A DNA stretch of 64,000 bases, from contig NZ_WVIE01000021.1 in assembly GCF_010091945.1 (NCBI RefSeq), positions 1 to 64,000 of the forward strand. Direction: 5' to 3'. Positions 131 to 61,802 of this stretch are shown in pieces; the stretch's first letter is position 1; the number at the start of each line of letters is the position of its first letter. The notes below the pieces were generated by a model. The model had not been told where the DNA came from. It did no database searches and saw nothing but the letters and a program-made list of their open reading frames with translations. Source of the stretch: Myxacorys almedinensis A. GTDB lineage: Bacteria; Cyanobacteriota; Cyanobacteriia; Leptolyngbyales; Leptolyngbyaceae. A program made the translations under genes and the position numbers.

Positions 131-282
131 ATACCAAATTAATCTGTAAATGCGACAGACCTGACGACCTCCCCCAACCCCTCCTGGGTCAGGAGGGGAG
201 CCGGAACGTCCTTCCTGACCCAGGGGGGATGCTGTAGGCAGGGGGTCGAGGATCTGTCCGCAGTTGAAAAATCAATTGGTAT
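131..282. repeat. MITE-like repeat, copy 1 of 3
   Basis: This 152-bp element begins ATACCAAATTAAT and ends ATCAATTGGTAT, so its ends form an imperfect terminal inverted repeat. Inside are GC-rich self-complementary arms: CCCCTCCTG and CAGGAGGGG can pair locally, and CCTGGGTCAGGA can pair with the later TCCTGACCCAGG. It is clearly similar over its whole length to 16370-16520 and 34284-34433. It contains no gene. It lies 20 bp beyond the stop of the YqgF-like gene. No target-site duplication is obvious. Confidence 0.8.
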
Positions 283-302: not shown

Positions 303-719
303 CTAAGCCGTCAACCGGTGTAGATAGCGCTCGATCAACAAAATCGCCACGATGTCATCGATGCTGCGCGGCGGCGTCCGCATTCCCTCAGGCACAAGGC
401 GTGTCAGACCTGTGGGCGGATACATCTGCCAGTAGCGATCGCGCGCCTCCAACGAACTGTGCCGCTCATCTACCATCACCACCCGCAACGGCTCCCCCAA
501 CTCCTCGTTTAGCCTCCGCTTCCACGCCTTAGATGAGGTCTGATCTCCCATCACCAATAGCGAAATGGGAAGCTGTTGCCGCAGCGATCGAATCGTTGCG
601 ATCGCGCCGTCTGCCGTCACTACCTCGTGATAATATAACCGGCGATCCACCCCCATCACCGCTAACCCGCACTTTTGCCGCCCCGGATCAAATCCCAAGA
701 TCACCGGTTGATCCCCCAT
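303..719 (-). CDS. YqgF/RuvX-fold nuclease-like protein
   Basis: This protein of about 138 residues has an RNase H-like fold start, VILGFDPGRQKCG, with the first acidic residue at D11, and conserved VMVDERHSS and SIDDIVAILL segments later. These match the YqgF/Holliday-resolvase-like superfamily. The characterised RuvX members process pre-16S rRNA; this is a cyanobacterial side branch whose substrate is not known to me. The chosen start is the ATG at 719, preceded by GAGGAG. An upstream ATG at 743 and a GTG at 761 are also in frame. It follows the DUF3084 gene on the same strand and is probably co-transcribed with it. Confidence 0.8.
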   Translation of the reverse strand: MGDQPVILGFDPGRQKCGLAVMGVDRRLYYHEVVTADGAIATIRSLRQQLPISLLVMGDQTSSKAWKRRLNEELGEPLRVVMVDERHSSLEARDRYWQMYPPTGLTRLVPEGMRTPPRSIDDIVAILLIERYLHRLTA

Positions 720-763
720 CGTCTCCTCGTTCGTCTCCCTCATCGGTTCCCAACTACACACGA

Positions 764-16215: not shown

Positions 16216-16369
16216 GGGAGTGTGTGCATGTCACCGTAGCTATGGGATGAAGTCCCTTTATCGCATAACCCCACAATCTAATGGTAATGTCTGATAAGTA
16301 TTATGTGGCGACGAGAAACTTCATGAAGAGGCTAACTTCTAGTTGACTCCTAAAGTGTCTCGTTGTCTC

Positions 16370-16520
16370 ATACCAAATTAATCTGTAAATGCTACAGACC
16401 TGCGACCCCCCCCAACCTCTTCTTAGTCAGGAGGGGAGCCGGAAAGTTCCTCCTGACCAAGGGAGAATGCCGTAGGTAGGGGGTCGAGGATCTGTCGCAG
16501 TAGAAAAATCAATTTGGTAT
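16370..16520. repeat. MITE-like repeat, copy 2 of 3
   Basis: This 151-bp element starts ATACCAAATTAATCTGT and ends with AATCAATTTGGTAT; the ends are inverted repeats of each other. Its interior matches copies 1 and 3, including AGGAGGGGAGCCGG and GAGGATCTGTCGCAG. It inserts 38 bp before the SH3b gene start, so it forms that gene's promoter-proximal leader. Confidence 0.82.
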
Positions 16521-16558
16521 CAAACCAATGGCTTCATAGCGGCAAATCAGACGTGGAC

Positions 16559-29388: not shown

Positions 29389-29488
29389 AATAGAAGCCTG
29401 ATGATGGGCGATCCGTTAAACGATGGTGGCGCGATTTTGAGTTGAGGGGTAAAGGGGTGCATGAGTCGATGGTTCCGATTACTAGACT

Positions 29489-29519
29489 CCCCATCTCCCC
29501 ATCTCCCCATCTCCCCATC
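29489..29519. repeat. 8-bp tandem repeat CCCCATCT, 3.9 units
   Basis: Four consecutive CCCCATC(T) units lie in the 200-bp spacer before the Ser/Thr kinase gene. Related CCCATC/TACCCC strings occur at 34549-34557, 48366-48470 and 55611-55672. This resembles the short tandemly repeated sequences known from cyanobacteria. Confidence 0.85.
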
Positions 29520-29587
29520 GACTCCTAATCCCTCATTTCAAACTTGACAGACCACCAGGGTTACTCTCAGTTCCTCATTCCTTGTAG

Positions 29588-34134: not shown

Positions 34135-34227
34135 TTAGATCAGCTTGATGGCACGGAAGGCAGTATACAGTCCGAATGCCAGTGCGATCGCGCCACCGAC
34201 CAAAGCCAAATACGTAATAACAGCCAT
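34135..34227 (-). CDS. petL: Cytochrome b6f complex subunit PetL
   Basis: This 30-residue frame encodes a single membrane helix. It begins MAVITYLALVGG and ends FRAIKLI, matching the short N-terminus, one helix and basic IK-L-I tail of cyanobacterial PetL, which stabilises the b6f dimer in the thylakoid. The ATG at 34227 has GGAG eight bases upstream. At 30 residues it is the normal size (31-32). It lies on the minus strand between the epimerase gene and a MITE-like element. Confidence 0.82.
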   Translation of the reverse strand: MAVITYLALVGGAIALAFGLYTAFRAIKLI

Positions 34228-34568
34228 ACGGGTTTCTCCAAACGTCCTATCAGCACTATACAAAAGTTTGGAGGACTATAGTTATACCAAATTAATCTGT
34301 AACTGCTATCGATGTGCGACCTCCCCCAACCCCTCCTGAGCCAGCAGGGAGCCGAAAAGTCCCTCCTCACCAAGGGGGAGAGCCGTAGGCAGGGGGGGCG
34401 AGGATCTGTCGCAGTGAACAATCAATTGGGTATTACAGGAGTTTGGGTTACAGGAGTTGGGCGATCTGGTGTGGTCACTCATCTGGTGTGGTCACTCAAT
34501 AGATGGTCAACATTGAGTTGAGGAGGAGATGGATTCGATTACTAACCAACCCATCCACTTTCACCGCC
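34228..34568. other. Intergenic region between petL and pdhA
   Basis: This 341-bp region contains the petL ribosome site and the third MITE-like copy (34284-34433), then CCCATC-type repeat sequence. No other gene is visible. There is no clear terminator after pdhA. Confidence 0.55.
34284..34433. repeat. MITE-like repeat, copy 3 of 3
   Basis: This 150-bp element starts ATACCAAATTAATCTGT and ends ATCAATTGGGTAT. Its interior matches copies 1 and 2 (CTCCCCCAACCCCTCCTGA, GAGGATCTGTCGCAG). The right inverted repeat has an extra G. It lies 56 bp upstream of petL, so it may contain or displace part of the petL promoter. Confidence 0.82.
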
Positions 34569-48365: not shown

Positions 48366-48435
48366 GAGTGGAGGGGTTAGAGAGTTAATGGGTGGATGGG
48401 TCGCTCAGTAATCCAGCCCATCTACCCCTCCACTC
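48366..48435. repeat. Palindromic CCCATC/ACCCCTC repeat element
   Basis: GAGTGGAGGGGT (48366-48377) and ACCCCTCCACTC (48424-48435) are perfect 12-bp inverted arms. An inner GATGGG/CCCATC pair lies within the loop. The right arm is followed by a second CATCTACCCCTCTACTC copy. It resembles shorter elements at 29489, 34520 and 55611. It lies between glgP and the Tab2-type gene. Confidence 0.75.
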
Positions 48436-48482
48436 ATCTACCCCTCTACTCATTCACCCATCGACTTAACCTTGACCATCTA

Positions 48483-55580: not shown

Positions 55581-56175
55581 ATTCAATCCCATCTGGATAG
55601 AGCGTCAATGGTGAGTGAAGGGGTGGAAGGGTGGCGGGAGATGTTACCCGTCCACCCATCTACCCATCGACAGTCTGGAGCAGGAGACCCGAAGCAATCG
55701 ATCAAGTTAGTCTTTGTAGGAGCCGCCAGCGATCGCGCCGCAAAATTATTGACCGTTGAATCAAAAGTGCCTCACGATTTGATGATTGATTTTGATTATG
55801 AATAAATAGCAAATAGGGAGCATTTTTCTCAAAAATAGAATTATATTTCTGAGTCTAATGCCCAACACAGTTTTCAATGGAACAAAGACTGGTCAAACGG
55901 TACCGTAGTTGACGCTACCGAAGACTTAATATCATCAAAACATAACCTTGTGTAAAAGACAGTCACATATAAGGCTGAACTCTAATTTCGGCGTTATTTT
56001 CCCTGCACCAGGTGAGACTGCCAATGCTACATTTCCTACTCTAGCTAGAGATGGCTTATTCTTTTGGAGGGTTACCATAAATAGCTAAGGCTTAGCGTGT
56101 CTTGTGCTCTTTTAGTGGGTTGTACAGAATAATTGGGTTAACTTCCCGTCCTCACTAGATGTTCTGTTGTTTCCG
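55581..56175. other. Intergenic region before the hybrid histidine kinase
   Basis: This 595-bp region has a CCCATC-type repeat (55611-55672) and an AT-rich part with a complete NtcA-type promoter match (55905-55948). A 65-codon frame at 55608-55805 runs through the repeat and is not credible. Confidence 0.55.
55905..55948 (+). promoter_or_regulatory. NtcA-type activated promoter match
   Basis: GTA-GTTGACGC-TAC (55905-55918) fits GTA-N8-TAC exactly. After 24 bases comes TAACCT (55943-55948), fitting the TAN3T -10 element; 20-24 bases is the spacing known for NtcA-activated promoters. It faces the hybrid histidine kinase gene, whose start is 227 bp downstream. Confidence 0.5.
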
Positions 56176-61517: not shown

Positions 61518-61802
61518 TCTCCCATCATCGATCACGATTTCCCTTCTTTTCAACCCAGTTCTCAGTTCACCTGTCTAAACCAGTGGGCGTTGCTAAATGC
61601 AAGTATGATTTCCCTCCTCGCGAAGCGGGTCGAAGACCTCCCCAGCCCTTCTCCCCAAGGAAAAGAGAATCTGGTTCCCTCTCCCACGGGGAGAGGGTTA
61701 GGGTGAGGGCGGTTTGGAATTTATATCTCCGTTCACCTGTCTAAGCCCGTGCAGCCCCCATCCAATCAGGCTCACCCGTTAGCTATGGCACTCTGCTCAA
61801 GG

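Follow-up and report, generated by a model that had tools for sequence, protein, structure and literature searches.

Our analysis indicated that a repeat of ca. 150 bp, found three times in the window (the whole stretch of 64,000 nucleotides analysed), very probably represents a family of non-autonomous DNA transposons (MITEs). Its members are units of ca. 151 bp that carry a 3-bp target duplication, mostly of the form TNA, lie mostly between genes and are missing at the matching positions in related genomes. The copies in the window and the parts of copy 1 are as follows.

131–282, plus strand: MITE copy 1, 152 bp, with the mobile unit TACC..GGTA at 132–281
131–153, plus strand: left terminal repeat of copy 1, ATACCAAATTAATCTGTAAATGC type; the same kind begins at 16370 and 34284
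154–259, no strand: interior of copy 1, non-coding, self-complementary and G+C-rich
260–282, minus strand: right terminal repeat of copy 1, an imperfect version of the family form ATACCMAATTGATTKTTCACTGC; the same kind at 16498–16520 and 34411–34433
16370–16520, plus strand: MITE copy 2, 151 bp, with the mobile unit at 16371–16519
34284–34433, plus strand: MITE copy 3, 150 bp, with the mobile unit at 34285–34432

A preceding sequence-only reading had placed copies at 131–282, 16370–16520 and 34284–34433, and all three were located there. The copies are real within these bounds, but the outer A or T is part of the 3-bp duplicated target, and the mobile unit itself extends from TACC to GGTA. The target duplications of copy 2 (TCA at 16368–16370 and 16520–16522) and copy 3 (TTA at 34282–34284 and 34433–34435) are exact, and that of copy 1 is decayed (TGA at 129–131, TGC at 282–284). 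Window base 1 is also the first base of the contig, leaving copy 1 with 130 bp of left context. Regarding the neighbouring genes, the stop codon of a RuvX-domain gene (303–761, minus strand) is located 21 bp from copy 1, the ATG (16559) of an SH3-domain gene lies 39 bp downstream of copy 2, and copy 3 sits 57 bp upstream of a petL-like gene (34135–34227, minus strand). In agreement with the shared length and lack of coding capacity proposed earlier, the copies measure 150–152 bp and contain no ORF of 100 aa or more, while one TTG-start ORF covers the final 7 bp of copy 2. A direct-repeat search of the window (seed 14, minimum length 35) reported these three copies only, and the bare 13-mer end, when allowed 3 mismatches, occurred at 12 window sites versus 13.1 in shuffles, which is not above chance; the non-chance signal is the full-length repeat rather than the 13-base end alone. 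Short tandem repeats are also present in the window at 29487–29519 (CTCCCCAT, 8 bp) and 48417–48462 (CATCTACCCCTCCACT, 16 bp), and a perfect 17-bp tandem repeat (ATCTGGTGTGGTCACTC) occupies 34464–34498, ca. 30 bp beyond copy 3.

Further copies were sought in the own genome (G000; 4.96 Mb in 85 contigs). BLAST found at least 40 places of 139–153 bp with 86–100% identity, a lower bound obtained by scoring 40 of 83 first-look candidates, with copy 3 itself absent among the matches listed; two further BLAST rows were the hairpin matching itself. Terminal-repeat sites with up to 2 mismatches numbered 156 (100 of which were listed), versus 7 for the reversed pattern, and halving these end sites gives a family of about 80 copies. 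The three copies in the window are, thus, not the only ones in the genome, and the expectation of dozens to hundreds per genome was borne out. Sixty-three distinct copies with both ends were collected, excluding reverse-strand duplicates, three spurious pairings of 188–399 bp and another three, within the window, attributed to chance; five loci of the own genome in which a single end was recognisable (L036, L037, L040, L042 and L043) are left out as well, and the end of copy 1 was placed by hand in this set. Their lengths ranged from 83 to 366 bp, with 46/63 at 149–153 bp, 52/63 at 140–156 bp and short family forms of 83–139 bp. The 52 copies of 140–156 bp were 88.7–96.7% identical to the consensus and on average 88.9% identical pairwise, a divergence that would be as expected for an old burst. 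The 366-bp copy (L031) has another inverted-repeat element inside. This element of ca. 255 bp with ends CTATCCATTAG... splits the family copy at L031:570-824 (G000:C5:70400-72400), suggesting that a second mobile family has moved in the own genome.

The ends and their surroundings were compared among the 63 copies. Terminal inverted repeats, also part of the sequence-only reading, were confirmed as imperfect inverted ends beginning with TACC, the family ends being ATACCAAATTAATCTGTAAATGC on the left and ATACCMAATTGATTKTTCACTGC on the right. The base immediately outside the ends varied among copies, and the left base equalled the right one in 50/63 copies versus 16.5 expected. An exact 3-bp repeat around TACC...GGTA was found in 45/63 copies, 42 of them TNA (TGA 15, TAA 12, TTA 11, TCA 4; GAA, CAA and CGA 1 each); TNA stood on both sides, equal or not, in 47/63 copies, and 11 more copies showed a one-base difference. 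Control 3-mers taken further out were equal in only 7/504 comparisons. We read the 18/63 copies lacking an exact duplication and the three exact ones that are not TNA as decay. Both the terminal inverted repeats and the target duplication of fixed length (3 bp) are as required of a MITE. Since palindromic units of the REP or tandem-repeat type, which spread without a DDE enzyme, are likewise small, palindromic and intergenic, they were considered as an explanation, but defined inverted ends, a 3-bp duplication whose matching middle base varies, and empty sites make it vanishingly improbable; in our view, the target duplication rules it out.

The empty sites were sought, as the sequence-only reading had advised, by comparing 90+90 bases of joined flank from 16 of the 63 copies, picked mainly for nearness to ORFs, with 39 genomes of the bacterial family. 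The flanks of the copy in L282 (G000:C2:12966-13116) aligned to G021 and G017 with exactly 3 bases used twice, an overlap that gives the target duplication, and they also aligned to element-free sequence in G001 and G060. The sample included a single congener, G001, in which 7 loci had matches, 5 were alignable on both sides, and the element was absent in 5/5; the alignments at L282 and L278 were good, the left match at L290 comprised 14 bases only, the right match at L293 began ca. 110 bp beyond the element, and some 45 bp were extra between the matches in G001 at L292. Copy 3 and L010 aligned well to G001 on one side only. G001 gave 0 BLAST matches to the family and 0 exact ends. Similar repeats within the own genome served as further empty sites: the joined flanks of L027, whose target repeat reads GAA without the TNA form, matched window 61584–61663 without a break at the joint (66/81); for the L286 flanks, the match was to window 55619–55671 (43/53). 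These observations place the insertion boundaries at the ends of the element, as judged from both related genomes and similar own-genome repeats; the family is dispersed and multicopy with empty orthologous sites, as a MITE should be. They also suggest that the burst occurred later than the split from the one sampled congener. It would since have stopped or slowed, because the copies are 3–11% off the consensus and no autonomous partner was found.

L016 and L286 each show the element within a copy of another repeat, flanked on both sides by an identical set of eight bases but turned the other way round. That repeat, with ends CTAGTGGTCTGTCAAG / CTACTAG, occurs at window 29506–29558, in the right flank of L016, at L286:930-983 and at L015:560-682; the MITE has inserted into two copies of this repeat at the same place and in opposite orientation.

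The GC-rich, self-pairing interior described in the sequence-only reading is real, as copy 1 folds with −79.1 kcal/mol as RNA (131–281; z −6.6) and −40.9 as DNA (z −7.1), but it carries no sign of selection for pairing. Such a stable fold might mean that the element is retained as a functional RNA or a transcription terminator or attenuator, its spread being secondary to function. Its placement fits this in part: a mechanical ORF test scored 55/63 copies as intergenic, and 11 of 45 classifiable sites lay between convergent genes. Tandem sites were, however, the commonest (27/45), 7/45 sites were divergent, and the surroundings of copy 3 yielded no predicted terminator-like site (0.5 in shuffles). 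The aligned copies also argue against it. In the consensus fold of 50 copies, 91.6% of cells were paired versus 91.5% in shuffles, doubly changed pairs numbered 6 versus 7.9 in shuffles with the covariation score at the shuffled mean, and the RNAalifold covariation term contributed just −0.48 of −22.08 kcal/mol. The excess of compensatory base changes looked for in a functional structured RNA was, thus, absent. Rfam gave no match at the gathering score, and matches to microRNA models were rejected as far below their own gathering scores. A structured RNA was rejected for want of covariation, and we consider retention for an RNA or terminator function highly unlikely. Since compensatory changes are no commoner than in shuffles, the palindrome appears to be inherited and to decay freely, and a selected RNA finds no support here. 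On the minus strand at window 34275–34303, a promoter-like match (GTTACA, 17 nt, TATAGT) faces petL, with its first hexamer inside copy 3 and the second in the flank; with 1 such match versus 0.6 in shuffles, it may be due to chance.

We then turn to the enzyme that moved these MITEs. The claim that the parent transposase is absent from the window holds as far as examined, and none was found elsewhere in the loci examined; likewise, no autonomous partner with the same ends appeared in these loci, the genomes being partly drafts or MAGs. Profile matches in the own genome amounted to seven for PF01609, one for PF13340 and none for PF13359. No TACC ends bracketing a transposase (PF01609, PF13359, PF13340) were seen among the loci fetched from the own genome and up to 12 others, which covered 30 of 114 PF01609 matches, 30 of 38 PF13340 matches, 14 of 14 in another search and 17 further transposase regions chosen by hand. 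Among 16 own-genome ends without a listed exact partner (L031–L046), 15 lead into the family's own interior, and the last one (L040) is unpaired and adjoins an ORF with an AAA/R3H domain rather than a transposase.

Individual candidates for the parent were rejected. The seven own-genome PF01609 loci (L058–L064) have no such pair of ends, and a PF13340 remnant in G021 (L336) and further regions of G298 were dismissed too. End pairs 0.3–3.5 kb apart occur in Bacteroidota loci, five of which were read for ORFs without a family search and, on our reading, contain no transposase. Isolated matches to 8–10 bases of the motif in L218, L251, L275, L276, L313, L314, L321/L336, L323, L324, L331, L334 and L341 form no pair bracketing a gene, L336 and L324 being the ones read among the transposase loci with such matches. 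L051 (G033) was discarded as its insertion sequence lies inside a G033 MITE. There, at L051:341-1418, a MITE of the same end type is interrupted by an insertion sequence with two overlapping transposase ORFs, which we take to be ISAs1-like. At L104:1258-1521 (G275), a small palindrome and an ORF of 62 aa (MASIEVMIRDDDGN...) come after a solo end; this ORF matched no plasmid, nor any Pfam family over a cut-off. The absence of a parent is possibly explained by its loss from the genomes, loss in assembly or a transposase of another type.

Exact ends were present in 6/39 genomes of the bacterial family and 12/291 of the class, the own genome included in both. The five genomes outside the bacterial family with exact ends look like chance, their five matches, in the one distant genus g41, having one conserved context in common; so does a single match in G030 (L074) inside the bacterial family. 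Members in G033, G023, G021, G006 and G290 have the same ends and mostly other C-rich interiors, and MITEs with similar ends are present in two further genera of the bacterial family. Two single cases were noted: a minimal element of 41 bp in G006 (L085:1503-1543), roughly two terminal repeats back to back with TAA on both sides, and a thymidylate kinase gene (PF02223) in G290 (L110:344-1048), the last residues of which read into a MITE of the TACC end type. A plasmid search with a copy gave no match, and one with two 41-nt end sequences gave short matches at E 2–6 in 29 and 16 records, one being a Nostoc plasmid. Viral contigs yielded 8 single exact end matches and no second exact end.

A wider contig scan, using the end without the C-rich interior and with two non-C positions at bases 40–41, returned 101 loci, 80 of them listed. 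Because its pattern contains the end, likeness of the ends follows by construction, and the frequency of the C-rich kind is outside its scope. Single matches in many AT-rich genomes look like chance. A Saprospiraceae MAG (G298) contained a multicopy family, a looser pattern matching at 96 sites (control 0), and other Bacteroidota MAGs had 4–15 such sites (control 1 in G301, otherwise 0). Their ends are ATACCAAATTGATTTAT with TTA/TAA duplications, and elements with both ends recognised are 104–163 bp long (ATACC...GGTAT). Exact TTA/TAA repeats flank 17/19 elements in the Saprospiraceae MAG and 3/3, 5/5 and 1/1 in the other Bacteroidota MAGs. The multicopy elements, the matching opposite end and the 3-bp TWA repeat are independent of the scan design; since these coincide, we infer that chance is an unlikely cause of the Bacteroidota match and that a single kind of transposase is indicated. 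Ends of a second set, ATACCGAATTGACTTTT, also bordered by TTA/TAA, occur in the Saprospiraceae MAG as well (L362–L373).

As to mechanism, a DDE transposase acting in trans would bind the ends, make cuts staggered by 3 bp and then paste the unit. An IS1031-like transposase of the IS5 family seems most likely because the IS1031 group makes TNA duplications, the target duplication being the sole basis of this assignment; a TNA target duplication of 3 bp has been reported for IS5-family elements of the IS1031 subgroup (PMC12016507). The family shares this duplication, but its ends, TACCAAATT, are not of the IS1031 kind (GA..). A 915-bp element of G006 with PF13340 and PF01609 domains likewise has TNA duplications in 6/6 copies examined, with ends GAGGGTGTTT, compared with TACCAAATT in the MITE family.

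The MITEs may alternatively owe their movement to a transposase other than an IS1031-like IS5 enzyme, for example one outside PF01609, PF13359 and PF13340, common to Cyanobacteria and Bacteroidota. The ATACCAAATTGATTTAT ends with TTA/TAA in the Bacteroidota MAGs and TNA in the own genome fit this reading, and no IS5-type locus examined was bracketed by TACC ends. Moreover, the left end faces TTA in 19/19 Saprospiraceae elements with both ends, and we know of no IS1031 description with such an orientation preference; yet at least two left ends in the looser-pattern list of that MAG face TAA, as do 4/5 in HGW-Bacteroidetes-3. As a 3-bp TNA duplication is already described for IS1031, multicopy insertion sequences are often lost in draft genomes and MAGs, and the transposase loci fetched were a part of those matched, we regard a different enzyme as a serious possibility but the less probable one. 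A more specific and slightly more doubtful proposal is that an undescribed transposase family, with TACCRAAT-type ends and a TNA duplication, seeded MITEs in both Cyanobacteria and Bacteroidota, its autonomous form being rare, lost or unrecognised. If true, a single end-recognition family would span both phyla, with its passengers being all that has been known of it so far.

The element is ordinary in kind and well delimited, and its real interest is the matching ends in two phyla and the enzyme awaiting identification. With defined ends and target, insertions that would postdate the split from the congener, and matching ends in another phylum, the transposase becomes searchable by its ends. 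In addition, some 80 mostly intergenic insertions, one 57 bp upstream of petL, provide natural material for studying effects on expression.

Among known systems, Nezha, which Zhou et al. reportedly described in 2008 as a MITE of Anabaena/Nostoc, is alike as a cyanobacterial MITE, by kind only. No description of TACC ends was found in the open-access literature as far as its text was available, and the matches listed for the 10-mer ATACCAAATT in that literature were unrelated by title. Many bacterial MITEs have no identified parent, an example being those of Anabaena sp. 90, where 147 MITEs of 77–541 bp, 132 of them intergenic, lack similarity to the ends of that genome's insertion sequences and are termed type II (PMC3542288); they are likened to the present family by description only. 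The MITEs of Porphyromonas gingivalis were assigned IS5-family parents by their ends, and the ends printed there (GAGACCTT.., ACGTCA..) are not TACC ends (PMC4596501). Microcystis PCC 7806 has a 187-bp MITE, also a cyanobacterial stem-loop, whose 9-nt ends were matched to ISL3-family transposases, and the comparison is by description (PMC11448079). The IS1031 subgroup is alike in target, with the same 3-bp TNA duplication and an insertion sequence of such type in the related genome G006, but the element here has no gene, and the IS1031-type ends seen in ISLrh and in G006 (ISLrh GAACCTGTCTAG, GAACCTGTC; G006 GAGGGTGTTT) differ from TACCAAATT of the MITE family. Eukaryotic Tourist/PIF-Harbinger MITEs are alike in their TWA target duplication, while ends and hosts differ, and the likeness is one of analogy only.
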